A DNA stretch of 64,000 bases, taken from the NCBI GenBank assembly GCA_018127085.1, contig CM030723.1, positions 253,685-317,684 of the forward strand, in the 5' to 3' direction. Of this stretch, positions 24,901-32,006 are shown piece after piece. Origin of the DNA: Pneumocystis sp. 'macacae'. Lineage: Eukaryota > Ascomycota > Pneumocystomycetes > Pneumocystales > Pneumocystaceae. The notes beneath the pieces were generated by a model. That model made no database searches and was not told the origin of the DNA. It worked only from the letters and a program-made list of their open reading frames with translations. Both the position numbers and the translations under genes were made by a program. Each line of letters opens with the position of its first letter. Position 1 is the first letter of the stretch.

Positions 24901-25670
24901 ACCAAACAAATCCGCTAATGTCCCTTCTTCATCAAATTGATAAACTAAGGCTTTGATAAAATCAAACGGAATCCCATCACTTGAATCCAATTCCTCAAGA
25001 AGCTTAGTTGCAAAGTCGATCGGGGGTTGTTGGTGCCTTTAAATATAAGATGGAATAAAAGACAATTCATGATATACTCAAACATCTCCGGAAAAGTGAT
25101 AGATAGACCTGAATAACTTACGAAAAGACGCTTTGCCTCTTTAATTACATCCATCTTTGCCTCTGCATCAACTGATTTACGTATTACTTTTTCCATTGCA
25201 ACAGAACGTTTCCAACATGAAATTAAATAATCAAACGGCTTACTCGGAGACGCCATTGAAAGCCTTGTAAGAATAACCCGGTCAAGGGTATCAACAGATA
25301 TAACCGGTTCTTCACATTAGAAACACCACACAAATTGCAGATAGAGTATTACCCAGGGACTCGTCAATCAGCTCTTGTCGAAGAGCGGACAAAAACATAT
25401 AATCCGGTGTTTTTAAATAGGTTTTTTCCTAAAAACACTGTTAAACATCGCCAGCAATTTTCACACAGTTACATCTAACGTTACTTGCAGTATCTTGCCA
25501 AGGGTCGCCGATTGCCATAGAATAAATGTTTCATTGTTTTCACTGTCTTTATTCTCTCTAAGCTCTAGCATCTGCTTAAATGGCTCTGAAGACACAGGAT
25601 CTAGTATTTCACTTATTTCTGACACATTCTGTGACTCGGTAGCGTTGTTTCTATCCTCAATAGAGTCCAT
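21974..25670 (-). CDS. ufd2: Ubiquitin chain-elongation factor (E4) Ufd2
   Basis: Starts [14 protein letters not shown]. The core has the Ufd2P pattern: [48 protein letters not shown]-type and [18 protein letters not shown] blocks, then [10 protein letters not shown] and [19 protein letters not shown]. The C-terminus is a U-box with [42 protein letters not shown], and after a last intron [19 protein letters not shown]. Ufd2 extends ubiquitin chains on Cdc48-bound substrates on the way to the proteasome. Many introns of about 45 bases; I did not place all. GC content rises toward its 5' end, the left shoulder of the GC island. Confidence 0.9.
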
Positions 25671-26030
25671 AAAATCACGCTTATCTGCGCTTCAAATCTT
25701 TAATTTCAATTAGACTTGCAGACTTTAAAAACCTCAAAAGATCCTTAAATCTGCTTGAAATGCCTGGCTTGTTCTTTCAAATCTAGCACTTATCTCCCAG
25801 CTCTTCTCGACAAAAGGCCTGTTTTTGTCTTCGGCTTAAGATTAAAAATGATCGCCGAGCAACAACCACACAACGACCTGGCAAATATTTGCCAAACATA
25901 TGGACCTGAAAAAATACACAAACACATGTTCATTGCTCTTATATTTGCTGCATAACACTACATACTGCTAAACACACCTATATACTGCTAGACATAGCAC
26001 CGCTACAGACAGCCATGCCCATACGTCTAC
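25671..26030. other. UFD2 5' flank, left shoulder of GC island
   Basis: Composition shifts from AT-rich to mixed, and TAGCAC/CTGCTA-type repeats of the 'actgctaaacacacc' kind appear from about 25950. Promoter of UFD2 and 3' flank of ADE12. No gene recognised. Confidence 0.4.
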
Positions 26031-27725
26031 CTAGCAGACAATGATATCGTTTCGGCTGGGGCCGACTCCAATGTAGATCACCTTCACATCAACAAAGTCC
26101 TCTATAAACCGGATGTACGCCTGTGCCTCCAGCGGCAACTCCCCAAACGCCCTGCACCCCCTCGTCGTCCTCTGCCATCCCGGCAGCGTCTTGTACTCGA
26201 CCTGGACGCTTTTAAGCGTCTCCAGATCCGCTACCCACATCACTCTCCTGCACTCACCCCCACCACTCATACCTGGCACATACGGGACCTCCTCGCCCTC
26301 CTTTTTGTACGCCACCCCAACTTTGATCTCTGCAAGCCCGTCCAGCACATCCAGCTTCGTAACCATCAAGCTGTTCCTGTCAGACCACACACAATCCCCC
26401 CACAAACACCCCATATACCCCGAATATCCATTGATCCATCCAGAGTACCGCAAAAGCACCAGATCTAGCCATCCACACCGCCGCCGCCGCCCCGTCGTCA
26501 CCCCCCATTCCCGTCCCTCCCGCTGCAGGTGCTCTCCCGTCTCCTACACACATCAGCCATTCTATCCTCCCGTCCTGCACACTCCATCCGCCTTTTCATA
26601 CATCCTGCAGCTCTGTCGGAAACGGCCCATACCCCACCCTCGTCGTATACGCCTTGACAACCCCGATAACATGCTCGATCTGCCGGGGCGACAACCCTAA
26701 CCCTGTACACACACCCCCAATCGATGTGTTCGAGCTCGTGACATATGGATACGTCCCGTAGTCGATGTCGAGCATCAGCGCGTTTGCACCCTCGACAAGG
26801 ATCCGCTTCTCCGCCCGGATCGCCTGCTGCATGAAGTACACCGCGTCCACCACATATGGCCGCAGCCGCTCTGCATATCCCTGCGCCGTCAGCCCGCCCT
26901 CTGCGCCAGCCAGCCAGCCCCTGCCCCCAACCCTAACCCTGTTCCATCTACACCCAACCCTACCATCCCAACCCTATCCAACCTAACCCACCCTAACCCT
27001 ACAAACACAACTAGCCCTGTGCCTGTCCAACCCCTGCCCTGCCCTAACCCTGCCACGCGCTGGCCGGACACACTCACCCGATACCGGTCGAGCTCTGCGT
27101 CGACATCACAGACCCCGCCACACCGCCCATAGCGGCGCTCGTGCCACTCAACATTCTGCCGCAGCAGCCGCTCAAAGTCACCAAACACATACAGATGGTG
27201 CACCCGGATCCCGCTCCGCTCTGCCTTGCTGCTGTATGCCGGCCCAATGCCCTTGCCCGTTGTCCCAATGCTGTGCTCCCCCAGCTCTCTCTCCCGCAGC
27301 CGGTCTGCCTCGCAGTGGTAATCCAGGACCAGGTGCGCCCGGTCCGAGACAAAGACCCGGTTCTGTGTCTCGATTCCCCGTGTCTCCAGCGCCTCCAGCT
27401 CCGAGAAAAACGACGGCAGATGCACAACAACCCCTGATCCCACCAGGTTTGCGCATCCCGGTCTGACCACGCCCGACGGGACTGTGTGCAGCTGGTAGCT
27501 CTGTCCCCCCACAACGACCGTGTGGCCCGCGTTGTTCCCGCCCTGGCACCGTGTGCACAGGTCCGCCTGTCCTGACAGGATGTCGACCAGCTTGCCCTTG
27601 CCTGTTGCTCAGTCCTGCGCCTGTGCCGGCTCTATACCTTCGTCCCCCCACTGCGACCCAAGGACGACGGTCACTCTGTCCTGTCAGCCAACACACTGAG
27701 GGGGGGGCAGCAACCCTGAGAGCAT
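26031..27725 (-). CDS. ade12: Adenylosuccinate synthetase
   Basis: Six exons on the minus strand: 27725-27715, 27675-27638, 27601-27078, 26880-26602, 26543-26419 and 26376-26031. They total 1323 bases (440 residues; family about 430). It reads [19 protein letters not shown] (GDEGKGK, catalytic Asp), [11 protein letters not shown] (catalytic His), [55 protein letters not shown] and LPGWQ. The enzyme joins IMP and Asp with GTP on the way to AMP. All six exons are GC-rich with G/C third positions, unlike the rest of the window, yet the introns are short and GT-AG. One intron (26881-27077) is unusually long with telomere-like repeats. The first exon (11 bases) is the least certain part. Confidence 0.9.
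26881..27077 (-). repeat. ADE12 intron with TTAGGG-like repeats and G-quadruplex motif
   Basis: This 197-base intron has ends GTGAGT...GCGCAG and a CTGAC branch-like site. On the plus strand it holds CCCTAACCC at 26931, 26991 and 27042, with degenerate CCAACCCTA units between. A fourth copy lies in the next exon at 26695. On the pre-mRNA strand, 27050-27031 reads GGGTTAGGGCAGGGCAGGGG, a textbook G-quadruplex pattern. It is the only ADE12 intron above 60 bases. Confidence 0.7.
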
Positions 27726-27949
27726 TTCGATTTTGCTGTGCCTGGCGACGGGACACGGGCGCCTAAGGCGGTGGCCGGGCTGGGCGTGCGCGCCCGCTGC
27801 ACTGCAGACGCGCCGCCAGAGATGACCGCGTCGATCTCGTCGCTCGACAGCGGTTGTGGGCGGAAGCGCAGGGGCGTGTCGCGGCAGCGGGCGCCCAGGA
27901 AGCGGATGAGGGGCCGGTGTGCGTGCTGGTGGATGTATGCGTGGTGCAT
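27671..27949 (-). CDS. Kgd4/Ymr31/MRPS36-like 2-oxoglutarate dehydrogenase subunit, unusual
   Basis: The minus-strand frame from ATG 27949 reads MHHAYIHQHAHRPLIRFLGA, then RFRPQPLSSDEIDAVISGGAS. Kgd4 proteins have two short conserved blocks, a PLIRF/PMIKF.G.R block near the N-terminus and RF(R/Y)..P.s..E...I.SGGA at the C-terminus. Both are present in order and frame. Kgd4 tethers the E3 subunit to the mitochondrial 2-oxoglutarate dehydrogenase core. Oddities: the linker between the blocks is only a few residues (dozens in relatives), and the frame runs about 43 codons past SGGA to a stop at 27671, overlapping the first ADE12 exons on the same strand. An in-frame ATG also lies at 28084. Chance open frames abound here, so this needs transcript support. 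Confidence 0.5.
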   Translation of the reverse strand: MHHAYIHQHAHRPLIRFLGARCRDTPLRFRPQPLSSDEIDAVISGGASAVQRARTPSPATALGARVPSPGTAKSKCSQGCCPPLSVLADRTE

Positions 27950-28449
27950 GCGGAGCACCCGGTGCGCGCGGGCTTGGGCACACTGCGCCTGCTGCACGCA
28001 TATACTCAGTATGCTGCACATGCAGCGCGCATTGCTGTGCAGCGGCACCGCATACACCGCATGCCGTGCAGCAGGCGCATGCACTCACTATGCGCGCCAT
28101 ATGAGGTGCATGCGCCTGCACCGCATGTGCAGTGCACAGCGCCGCAACTGCAGAGCATACACGCACTGTACACAGCGTATAGCGCATACACTCCATATAC
28201 CGCGCATACACCACGCATATATCCCGCATACACACGCATACACTGCGCATACACCCGCATATATGCACAGTATATGCGCAGTGCGCATACACCGCGCATA
28301 CAGCACGCATACACCCGGAGATCCCGCGCATACATACTCTGCACACCGCCCTGCGCATTGTGCACACATCATGCACATACTCTCCATGCCCCCCTCCCCT
28401 CTTCTCCCCACCCTCCTTCCGTTTTCGCCATCGACAGTTCCGACACACA
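27950..28449. promoter_or_regulatory. Divergent KGD4-ADE12 / LSD1 promoter with YGCATAY array
   Basis: Roughly a dozen copies of (C/T)GCATA(C/T) fall between 28150 and 28335, spaced mostly 9-14 bases apart. They sit in long alternating purine-pyrimidine runs such as GCGCATACAC and CGCATATATGCAC. The stretch 27940-28140 has the same character (GCATGC, GTGCGCGC, TATGCGCGCCATATG). Such alternation favours Z-DNA, and repeated near-palindromes suggest factor binding; both are inferences. Open reading frames here on both strands look like products of composition, apart from the Kgd4-like one. Confidence 0.55.
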
Positions 28450-31400
28450 ATGGACGACGACCCGACCGTCCGCAGCTCCTACCACCAACTCCACCACAAA
28501 TCCTTCTACCCCCGCCCGGCCCTGCGCCAGGACGGCCTCTCCCTCCCTGCTCCCCTCGGCTCCCAGCTCGGCTCGCTTGCCGAGCAGGAGGCCCTCTGGA
28601 CCCTGCTCCAGCAGCAGAGCCACCCTCCCCTCCCTGGCCAGCTCCACACACAGCCTCTCCAGCCCACTCCCCTCGGCGCATACTTCCCGGCCTCCGTTGG
28701 CAACTCCGTCGGCTGGTCCGGACAGGCATACTCCCAGTTCAGAGCATATCCCCAGGCAGTAGGCACCGTCGGCTCGCTCGGCAGAAACTATGCATACACC
28801 ACATACCCACCCAAACAGCCCACATACACCCACTATGCTCCACACACACAGCACCCATACTACTCGCCGCCCCTCGACTACACTGCATATACCCAGCACA
28901 CTCTGCCTGCTGCACATCTCCAGCACTACATTGGACCCAGGCTAGACACACACATGCAGGACATGGGTGCGGCGCCCGCCCCGCGGGCAAGCAGCGGGGC
29001 AGCGCGGGAGGAGCAGCGGACAGAGCCCAAGAAGGAGGCAGCGAAGGAGAGCGAGGTGCGGTATGTGGTCTCGGAGGCAGTGGACCGGCGGGGGAGTCCG
29101 TCGCTGAAGAGCTCGATCCCGCCGGGGATCAAGCACGAGGACTATACGCGGGACTGTGTGAGTGCGGCAGAGGCGTCGCGGCTGTCGCCATACCACCTGT
29201 CCAAGTCGGAGCATGCGCTGCTGCGGACGCACCTGACGCACCTGCAGATCACGTCGTATCTCAACATCAGAAATGCGATTCTGCGGCTGTGGATGAAGAA
29301 CCCGCTGCTGTATGTGGACGAGTATGAGGCACAGGGCATTGCACATGAGGAGCGGCACTTCAATCTGGCAAAGGTGTGCTGGGAGCATCTGGTGCGGGAG
29401 GGATACATCAACTTTGGGTGTGTGAGGGTGCCGAAGGCGCTTGCAGCGCCGGGGGCAGGGTCGAAGACGATTGTTGTGATTGGGGCGGGGGTGTCGGGGC
29501 TGGCGGCGGGGCGGCAGCTGGAGACGCTGTTCCAGATCTTCTCGGAGCGGTTCAAGGAGGAGGTGCCGAAGGTGGTGGTGCTGGAGGCGCGGGGGCGGCT
29601 GGGGGGGCGGGTGTACTCGCACAAGCTGAGTTCGCCGGCGACCGAGGCAGATTTCCCGAAGGAGGCGCGGTCGGCGGTGGATCTGGGGGCACAGATCATA
29701 ACGGGGTTTGCAAGGGGCAATCCGCTGTCGACGCTGCTTGTGAAGCAGCTGGGGCAGCCGGTGCACTTTCTGTCGGTGCACAACATCACGCTGTTTGACT
29801 CGAATGGGGAGATGGTGCTGCCGGACATGGATGCGAGGGCAGAGCAGCTGTTCAACTATATTTTGGAGATTGCAAGCCAGTTCAAGTCGAGGGAGAGCCG
29901 GGGGAATGGGAGACAGGTGCTGGAGGGGGACCGGAGCATGGTGGATGCGGGGATTGAGCCGAAGAGCGAGGGGGGCCGGGTGATTGCAAAGATCGAGGAC
30001 AACGAGGCGATGATACCAAGGATGGAGGAGGAGGAGGAGAGGGGGGCAGAGAGGGGAGAGGAGGGGGGGGAGGGGGAGAGGAGGGAGGACCCGGTGTCGG
30101 TTCTGGAGAAGATGGGGTTCCGGGTGCGGGAGAATGCATCGGTGGACACGAGGTTTGAGGAGATCTGGTCGAGGCCGAACCCGACGCTGGGGTTTGCAAT
30201 GTCGCGGATTCTGTCGGAGTGTGGGTCGGCAGCGGATCTGAGTGAGCTGGACATGAAGCTGCTGAACTGGCACTATGCGAATCTGGAGTATGCGAATGGG
30301 ACGAATCTGTCGAACCTGTCTCTGTACCACTGGGACCAGGATGACGGGAACGAGTTCAAGGGGGCGCATGCGATGGTGAAGGGGGGGTATTCTATTTTGC
30401 CGCATGCGCTGGCGCTTGTTCCGACGCCGCTGGAGATCCGGTACAAGACGATTGTTTCCGGTATCTCGTACAACGACAAGAGTGCGGTGGTGTATTGCGA
30501 GGATGGGAGTATGTTCAATGCGGACAAGGTCATAGTGACGGTGCCGCTTGGGGTGCTGAAGAAGTCGGCGATTCAGTTCAACCCGCCGCTGCCTGAGTGG
30601 AAGACACAATCCATAAGACGTCTTAATTTTGGGTTATTGAATAAGGTAGGGGGCGAGGGTCTGTGTCATGTCTAATGGGGGACAGATTATTCTAGTCTAT
30701 GATACCGCTTTTTGGGATGTAAATATTGATGTGTTTGGTTCGCTGAGGGAACCTGATAGCAACGGGGTGTATGATAAAAACAGAGGTATTGCGGTGTTGC
30801 AGCCGCTGATTTGTGTCTGGGCGGGGTGATTGATTGGAGAAACAGGGCGTTTTTATATATTTTGGAACTGCATTAAAACGGCGGGGCAGCCCGTACTACT
30901 TGCTCTTATGGCGGGGGATAGTGCTATTCAGATGGAGAACGAGACCGATAACGAGCTCATAAGGGAGGCGACGAAAATCCTCAAGAACATTTATCCGACG
31001 AAAATGGTGCCTTACCCTAAGGAGACTATTATCACACGATGGGGCAAAGATAGATTTTGTTATGGGAGCTATTCCTACGTTGGCCCAGAGGCATCGGGTA
31101 AGGATTATGACATTATAGCGAAGCCAGTGGAGAATACTCTTTTTTTCGCGGGAGAAGCAACGTGCAGAACACATCCCGCTACTGTGCATGGTGCATATCT
31201 TAGCGGCCTCAAAGTTGCACAATTAGTCCTTGAATCTTTGATTGGACCTCTCGAAATACCAGCAAATGAGCCTCTTATTCCGTTGAAACAAAGGGGAGCG
31301 GCAGAGGCAACCTCTGGTGTTAAACGGAAAGCACAAGACAATTATAAAGCATTACTTGCCGAATTTAAAGATGCTCAATTGGAGAAACATAACCAAGAAG

Positions 31401-32006
31401 TCGAAAAAGTTATCCTGGAGCGCTTAGGACCAAGACCATCTGCTCCACAACGTTCTACCGGGAATCCTTTTCTCGTTTTTCAAAAATCTCAATGGAATTA
31501 TTGTAAAGATATTGCGGATCAAAATAAACAGAAAGAAACCGGTAACCCTGAAGCCAAAGCCACGAAGAATGAAATACGAGCAACACTTGGTAGAACATGG
31601 AGGAATTTAAGTGATGAAGAAAAAAAACCATTTTTCGATATCGTTGCAACCAACCGTACTAATTTCTCGAATCTTATTGAGAAATATAACACTATTATCC
31701 ATGAATATAATATCAAAACAGAGGAAATAAAAGCCGAAATGAAAGCTAAGTTAGATGCGATGCCTATTTCTCAAGAAGAATTAGAATTGAAAAGACTTGC
31801 TAAGGAGCAAGATATTCAGGAAAAAAAGATTAAAGCTGAAAGAAAAAAAGAAAGAGACTTATTTGAAGATGAGGTAAATTTTTACCGTTTTATTCATCCA
31901 ACGTATTAACATATTAAAGCTAAGTGATTCATTTGATGATGATTATCAAGATAATTTACGAAATGATCCATCGTATAGAGCAGCAACATATTTGAAAAAA
32001 ACATAA
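28450..32006 (+). CDS. lsd1: LSD1-type flavin histone demethylase with SWIRM and HMG box
   Basis: Exons 28450-30645, 30686-30785, 30846-31873 and 31920-32006 (3411 bases, 1136 residues). Order: a Pro/Tyr/His-rich N-terminus of about 200 residues; SWIRM domain (YLNIRNAILRLWMKNP...GYINFGCVRVP); FAD motif VVIGAGVSGLAAGRQLE then VVVLEARGRLGGRV; DLGAQIITGFARGNPL; WHYANLEYANGTNLSNLSL; WDQDDGNEFKG. The catalytic lysine block NFGLLNK falls exactly at an intron edge. GKDYDIIAKP, FFAGEATCRTHPATVHGAYLSG and an HMG box (PFLVFQKSQW...WRNLSDEEKKPFFD) follow. The CoREST-binding tower of animal LSD1 is absent; a short acidic, purine-coded insert stands near that place. HMG-bearing LSD1 proteins occur in fission yeast, where they act at heterochromatin boundaries and promoters. 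Codon use flips from GC-rich to AT-rich after about 30600. Confidence 0.92.
30024..30089 (+). repeat. Homopurine tract in LSD1 coding sequence
   Basis: Sixty-six bases of A and G only, broken by a single C at 30047, with runs of up to nine G. It encodes a Glu/Arg/Gly-rich insert between the FAD/substrate segments. Homopurine-homopyrimidine DNA of this length can form triplex or quadruplex structures. Confidence 0.75.

Follow-up and report, generated by a model that had tools for sequence, protein, structure and literature searches.

A 64,000-base stretch of contig CM030723.1 of Pneumocystis macacae (assembly GCA_018127085.1, positions 253,685 to 317,684), here called the window and forming part of contig C4, contains an island of guanine-plus-cytosine (GC)-rich DNA that holds ADE12 and much of LSD1 and is surrounded by AT-rich sequence. 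An earlier note made from the sequence had pointed out an island of about 5 kb here, and the GC profile bears it out. With a 400-base smoother and a cut at 45% GC, the island extends over 25951-31283 and has a GC of 0.59 over 5.3 kb, compared to about 28% in the remaining window (mean 0.277, standard deviation 0.056, and maximum 0.428 in 227 bins of 250 bases located below 25 kb and above 32 kb). In 1-kb bins, GC is 0.54 to 0.66 across 26 to 31 kb and 0.21 to 0.36 in the bins beyond 25 to 32 kb. On the left, GC steps up from 0.40 to 0.56 at 26.0 kb, whereas on the right it declines gradually inside LSD1 (0.55, 0.48, 0.48, 0.46, 0.42, and 0.34 from 30.25 to 31.75 kb), so a gene does lie across the island edge, as had been proposed. 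A CpG depletion or methylation island was dismissed, since the change in the CpG observed/expected ratio (0.92 inside versus 0.82 outside) is too small.

The gene contents proposed for the island are largely supported by Pfam. ADE12 (adenylosuccinate synthetase), on the minus strand, matches in three pieces with 146 to 210 bits and comprises a C-terminal exon (26031-26543, coding-strand third-position skew +0.51), a middle exon (26596-26886, bounds approximate), and an N-terminal part (27075-27608, inner bound approximate). Its intron of about 185 bases (26890-27075, bounds approximate) consists mostly of telomere-like GGGTTAGGG/TTGGG variants on the minus strand, which here runs away from the island's centre. 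The Kgd4-like open frame (27671-28084, minus strand) is barely above the Pfam cut-off, with 23.3 versus 22 bits over 24 residues. An intergenic alternating purine-pyrimidine repeat of the CGCATAC/GTGTATGCG type, present in other islands too, occupies 28113-28350. LSD1 is read from the plus strand and is supported by SWIRM, amine oxidase, and HMG box matches; its first exon, with ends read off the sequence, spans 28450-30645, and an open frame at 30830-31909 holds later coding sequence (amine oxidase C terminus and HMG box), along which GC drops from 0.48 to 0.29. To the left of the island, where UFD2 had been placed, three pieces match Ufd2P_core and two pieces at 24.8 to 25.3 kb have no Pfam match. 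Because the domain order of LSD1 crosses the edge and intergenic, intronic, and 4-fold degenerate sites are all GC-rich, the island is the product of a local process acting on resident DNA, as the earlier note had argued.

The two halves of the island differ in strand composition. On the plus strand, the left half (25951-28952) is C-rich, with a GC skew of -0.30, and the right half (28953-31283) is G-rich, with a GC skew of +0.30; a local reversal (+0.19) is found in the left half at 27,750-28,000. The skew centre, defined as the minimum of the cumulative GC skew, lies at 28952-28953, 500 bases into LSD1 at about codon 167, and not at the divergent promoter, where the centre had been predicted. 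The third-position skew of LSD1 exon 1 flips within the exon, from -0.49 before 28,952 to +0.60 after it.

The island is not a one-off; the earlier note had a single window to draw on. A pattern search of the 8.27-Mb genome found 54 runs of 17 G/C bases preceded by A or T, 50 of them among the matches listed, and 24 run sites including the window were examined: 20 are islands of like kind, 3 (L019, L021, and L024) are chromosome-end copies of one run that stand outside the skew analysis, and 1 (L026, C6:520.7 kb) was rejected as an island because it is a homopolymer run of C. Outside these 24 are interior run sites at C1:156.6, C3:499.1, C8:366.6, C9:277.6, and C10:318.3 kb, homopolymers at C10:306.6 and C12:166.7, contig ends at C10:472.9 and C13:6.5, and four further runs. 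The islands are 2.9 to 6.4 kb long, some of them clipped by the stretch examined, with a GC of 59 to 65%; contig C14 alone has four, and their genes include housekeeping genes such as ribosomal proteins and a histone. A simple cut at the middle leaves the plus strand C-rich on the left and G-rich on the right in all 20 islands, with a right-minus-left skew of 0.25 to 0.83 (mean, 0.54). In 182 sliding windows of the AT-rich part, the same difference has a mean of 0.00, a standard deviation of 0.12, and a maximum of 0.32, and the sign goes from negative to positive in 16. The islands were selected by G/C runs, which have no such polarity, and skew was not a selection criterion. We also stated beforehand that clusters of the motifs described below at C13:168-170, C3:76, C6:373, C8:279-281, and C7:121 kb would be islands with a flip. 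Two of these five clusters were examined, and both are islands with a negative-to-positive flip (left -0.37/right +0.14 and left -0.30/right +0.22 when cut at the middle). An upward jump of GC skew at a point is therefore present in 20 of 20 islands and in 2 of 2 predicted ones, bringing the examined islands with mirrored skew, unnoticed earlier, to 22 of 22 (the window, 19 found via runs, and 2 predicted).

Averaging the profiles on the flip shows a GC of 0.63 to 0.67 within 1 kb and 0.35 to 0.40 at 3 kb, the signal being limited to about 2.5 to 3 kb on either side of the centre. On the right side, G falls from 0.41 to 0.21 between 1.2 and 2.4 kb with C steady at 0.17 to 0.20, and the left side is the mirror image. 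Near the centre G and C are both raised, whereas in the outer half almost only the G of the outward strand is raised and C is near background. In each island, some 3 to 6 kb of resident genes have gone from a GC of about 28% to one that levels off near 66%, around a point centre, and on both sides it is the outward strand, the one leading 5' to 3' from the centre, that is rich in G, whatever the direction of the genes.

Gene direction was examined with 25 pieces that have a Pfam match at an E value of 0.001: 21 of 30 island open reading frames (ORFs), prefiltered for GC at codon positions in the order GC3>GC1>GC2, and 4 ADE12 and LSD1 pieces of the window; the other 9 ORFs had no Pfam match and were excluded. 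The sign of the third-position skew matches the prediction from side and strand in 26 of 27 gene halves. Inward genes on the left (a DDX23/Prp28-type helicase, eL21, UBR, and an acyltransferase) and on the right (UCH, ARMH3, and PRMT3-like and GMPPB-like pieces) are C-rich at third positions on their coding strand, and at 4-fold sites the outward strand carries 60% G in inward genes (n = 1811) and 68% in outward genes (n = 1306). Beyond LSD1, the CLASP gene of island L027 also flips within one gene, its exons having skews of -0.44 and -0.34 on the left, the second extending slightly past the centre, and +0.61 on the right; these are outside the 27 halves. Since LSD1 and CLASP flip inside one gene, the centre is not the divergent promoter, and on the gene-strand tests both that promoter as the centre and gene transcription as the cause were rejected.

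The islands also carry short motifs. The most enriched 8-mers on the outward strand of the 20 islands are of telomere type: GGTTAGGG occurs there 65 times, versus 5.1 expected from dinucleotide shuffles, and in 18 of 20 islands. TTAGGG is found 77 times on the outward strand and CCCTAA 9 times. The telomere-type 8-mers peak 0.75 to 2.0 kb from the centre, nearly all on the outward strand, and, counting either strand, 2 lie in Pfam-matched coding DNA (9.7 kb) versus 69 in the 20 islands (93 kb). Genome-wide, GGTTAGGGTT has 137 matches versus 15 for the reversed pattern, although 19 of 100 among the matches listed belong to one terminal array. The orientation fits addition of repeats to an outward-growing 3' end; telomere healing and chromosome fusion were dropped as sources, since either would imply the opposite orientation. 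A second motif family, GTGTATGCG/CGCATAC, lies mainly 0.5 to 1.25 kb from the centre on both strands; GTGTATGCG has 147 matches genome-wide versus 16 for the reversed pattern, many of them tightly clustered. A BLAST comparison between islands returned 78 hits with an E value below 1e-5, of which the longest 15 cover 104 to 186 bases at 74 to 89% identity; the segment 28,113-28,263 of the window, inside the CGCATAC-type repeat, is 89% identical to island L037 over 152 bases. Stretches rich in GTGTATGCG/CGCATAC are similar across contigs (window 28113-28263, L018, L025, L032, L037, and L040); they might reflect a hotspot motif, an expanded simple sequence, or past exchange among islands.

Three proteins, LSD1, ARMH3, and CLASP, are recoded in P. 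macacae where their genes lie in islands, and LSD1 and CLASP are normal beyond them. We compared LSD1 of P. macacae with that of P. jirovecii and four others (P. canis, P. wakefieldiae, and two metagenome proteins). The GARP/FYMINK ratio of the island part reaches 1.17 in P. macacae, compared to 0.82 for P. jirovecii and 0.63 to 0.67 for the four others; beyond the island, it is 0.65 to 0.75 in all six. Of the sites that show no variation among the four others, P. macacae is changed at 35 of 331 inside the island and 6 of 305 outside, and P. jirovecii at 21 inside and 6 outside. The recoding of P. macacae LSD1 depends on the side of the flip: proline makes up 13% on the left (4 to 6% in the others), and Gly/Glu/Arg/Val/Ala/Trp make up 42% on the right versus 26 to 29%, with P. 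jirovecii at 35%. ARMH3, on the minus strand of a right half, has 13.7% proline versus 1.7 to 3.2% in relatives and is AT-type in P. jirovecii; its identity between P. macacae and P. jirovecii is 44%, compared to 79% between P. jirovecii and P. oryctolagi, over 401 gap-free columns, the P. macacae query being a stop-to-stop frame that may include an intron. CLASP of P. macacae is GC-type to about residue 964, near the island end (about residue 1001), and its gain left of the centre is mainly Ala and Arg and hardly Pro. In these three genes the bias overrides protein conservation in P. macacae, and the direction relative to the relatives is weak-to-strong, judged by this protein-level proxy for LSD1, ARMH3, and CLASP.

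According to the earlier note, AT-rich homologs in all close relatives would, together with foreign best hits, speak against a local process. The best hits are not foreign, and the relatives are not uniform. P. canis and P. wakefieldiae LSD1 are not GC-shifted, whereas P. jirovecii LSD1, whose model begins at about 29,293 so that sequence nearer the centre and leftward falls outside it, has a modest GC-type bias as far as about 29,743 (0.34 to 0.79 kb to the right of the flip) and is normal beyond that point. The CLASP proteins of P. jirovecii and, as far as it is present, of P. oryctolagi are GC-type for about the first 200 residues and normal after, and those of P. carinii and P. wakefieldiae are normal along their whole length. 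P. jirovecii thus shows a narrower GC bias inside the same islands at two loci, LSD1 and CLASP, and not with the same centre at CLASP. This suggests that the shared sites at the two loci predate the split of the two species, dated to about 62 million years ago in PMC7940399, with centres or widths having changed since; the alternative would be independent origin. An identical centre in P. jirovecii was dropped as an idea, given where its CLASP GC-type residues map.

GC-biased gene conversion at a recombination hotspot, the process favored in the earlier note, appears to be the best single explanation of the islands, and GC is raised at every site class (4-fold sites, third positions, intron, and spacer) as expected of it. 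Neither the mirrored C/G skew nor the polarity of the telomere-type repeats, however, is predicted by strand-symmetric conversion alone. A process that is point-centred, strand-polar, limited to 2 to 3 kb per side, and active on all site classes would be the expected trace of recurrent break repair, and on balance the islands are probably long-lived recombination hotspots with GC-biased, strand-polar repair of breaks. The centre would be the place of recurrent meiotic double-strand breaks, and on either side repair DNA would pair the donor's outward strand with the 3' tail of the recipient. G-bearing mismatches may resolve to G, and the others may mostly be restored to the recipient far from the break and converted near it, so that the outward strand would gain G along the entire tract but C just around the centre. 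Such a shift from conversion close to a break to restoration at a distance is reported for yeast HIS4. More tentatively, telomerase might sometimes extend the outward-growing 3' end; the TTAGGG-type inserts left on the outward strand would survive mainly in introns and spacers. P. macacae has domain matches to a Spo11-type TP6A_N, to UDG-family glycosylases, and to telomerase. The full combination, a set of ancient hotspots where repair always favors G on the outward strand and where telomerase adds TTAGGG-type inserts to the repair strand as it grows outward, is a tentative proposal and somewhat unlikely as a whole. In a mouse single-strand-annealing assay, strand mattered and mismatch type hardly did, according to the abstract (PMC9001825), and the passages of a paper on asexual Candida contain no strand-polar model (PMC3845650).

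Several observations weigh against recombination hotspots with strand-polar repair. In L035 and L037, both clipped on the right, the halves differ by 0.25, a value that control windows also reach (maximum, 0.32). On the outward strand, the losses of A and T are about equal, which makes a purely transition-based rule insufficient. The part of the acyltransferase just right of the centre (-0.08) is the sole exception among the 27 halves; the Kgd4-like frame, uncounted because its match is marginal, has -0.13 where a positive sign is expected, and the skew at 27,750-28,000 also has the wrong sign. Two telomere-type 8-mers fall within Pfam-matched coding DNA. The GC-type CLASP residues of P. jirovecii map to L027:3507-4151, about 0.4 to 1.05 kb left of the P. 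macacae flip (4558), and the residues at that flip are AT-type in P. jirovecii; the centre is hence not conserved to the base. Strand-asymmetric mutations at human hotspots hit C and A on the resected strand, as we read the passages of PMC7615360. This polarity is opposite to that of the islands, so mutation on resected tails is an unlikely cause and was rejected. Finally, an upward skew jump is equally given by a replication origin.

Efficient replication origins at the centres are the main rival, though an unlikely one: leading-strand or initiation mutagenesis would make the nascent outward strand G-rich and lift local GC. The polarity is that of an origin, C-rich to the left and G-rich to the right, and the centres are point-like. 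The reach of the signal argues otherwise, as persistence of skew on the scale of a fork was not found: the skew is gone by about 2.5 to 3 kb both in the averaged profile and in the window, where 1-kb bins farther out no longer keep opposite signs left and right of the island. An increase from 28% to 66% GC also far exceeds any origin effect known to us. Modelled initiation mutagenesis at human constitutive origins gives a local GC rise and a strand asymmetry that inverts at origins, which resembles the islands, but the asymmetry modelled is an AT skew and the domains analyzed in the passages of that study are 20 kb, whereas the islands end within 3 kb (PMC9645720).

A quite improbable alternative is that coding or noncoding transcription runs outward from the centre in both directions and that its R-loops on the G-rich non-template strand cause both skew and GC. 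Some islands, like that of the window, do have divergent genes, and outward genes are G-rich on the coding strand, but the skew follows position rather than annotated gene strand in the 26 of 27 halves and flips within LSD1 and CLASP. That test covers annotated genes, and unannotated outward transcripts are compatible with a transcriptional cause. Regional centromeres are very improbable. Pneumocystis centromeres are short (4.8 to 8.0 kb) and span active genes, yet passages of the same source give the CENP-A regions of P. murina and P. carinii a mean GC 3.9% lower and a number of one per chromosome (PMC10327204), and contig C14 has four islands. Foreign DNA, contamination, or a mobile element, to which the extreme composition and the short similarities between islands might point, has a negligible probability: LSD1, ARMH3, and CLASP, the three genes searched, have their best hits in Pneumocystis, the remainders of LSD1 and CLASP are AT-rich, no similarity between islands exceeds 186 bases, and the published assembly is described as built from Nanopore and Illumina reads; the island genes being resident, transfer is excluded, in agreement with the earlier note. 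Selection on codon usage or expression, suggested by the housekeeping genes in some islands, is equally negligible, as the intron and spacers are affected, the choice of C- or G-ending codons depends on the side, and conserved proteins are altered in composition.

GC bias at hotspots is already known from gerbils and canids (passages of PMC7403616); what sets the islands apart is how strong the bias is, together with the mirrored strand skew and the polarity of the telomere-type repeats. The hotspots of GC-biased gene conversion in canids after Prdm9 loss (cited in PMC7403616) are likewise small, strongly GC-biased regions in resident DNA, but the P. macacae islands, known here from their sequence, go from 28% to 66% GC with mirrored strand skew and telomere-type repeats. 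The runaway GC evolution of gerbils resembles them in extreme weak-to-strong substitution in resident genes, amino acid changes included; it differs in that "GC skew" there means GC bias and not strand asymmetry, that outlier genes lie in large clusters, and that the passages describe no point centre (PMC7403616). Human meiotic hotspots show an asymmetry mirrored about the break, about 2 kb per side with off-centre peaks at 700 to 800 bases, but, in the passages as we read them, of opposite polarity and as a mutation pattern rather than an island of base composition (PMC7615360). Yeast telomerase binds internal G-rich loci and adds telomeres after damage, although the abstract makes no link to meiotic hotspots or strand polarity (PMC8605574). 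In the titles and abstract openings of the Pneumocystis papers listed by the literature searches, with supplements and most subscription journals outside the search, such islands are not described; the 2021 genome paper on P. macacae does not use "hotspot" in its main text, nor does the 2016 genome paper use "GC-rich".

Pneumocystis has no reliable continuous culture, according to the abstract of PMC10327204, and its meiosis is therefore hard to study directly. If the islands are scars of hotspots, the genome maps recurrent break sites, the length of repair tracts, and the strand that was rewritten, and comparison of species would date the hotspots. If strand-polar repair is true, break centres, direction of repair synthesis, and tract length would be recorded in sequence and comparable across unculturable species, and mirrored skew would offer a sequence-only test of strand-polar mismatch repair. 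LSD1, CLASP, and ARMH3, heavily recoded in one lineage, are a strong case of a nonadaptive force overriding constraint.

For annotation, GC-rich exons in P. macacae should not be taken for contamination. The deposited LSD1 model, PMAC_002240, lacks about 180 N-terminal residues alignable with other species when compared with window positions 28450-30672, and seems to include intron-derived residues at two exon joins; misannotation of GC-rich exons may extend more widely. The Kgd4-like frame at 27671-28084 does not conform to the skew rule, perhaps owing to an incorrect gene model or to relocation of this stretch. Motif clusters away from the listed G/C runs, at C3:76.4-76.9, C6:372.7-373.8, and C7:120.7-122.7 kb and further at C4:49.2-51.0, C5:477.1-478.6, and C3:292.0-293.3 kb, suggest additional islands. 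An identical GC-rich run lies near five contig ends (C3:306, C4:553169, C8:480287, C10:472864, and C13:6509) and is probably a subtelomeric repeat.

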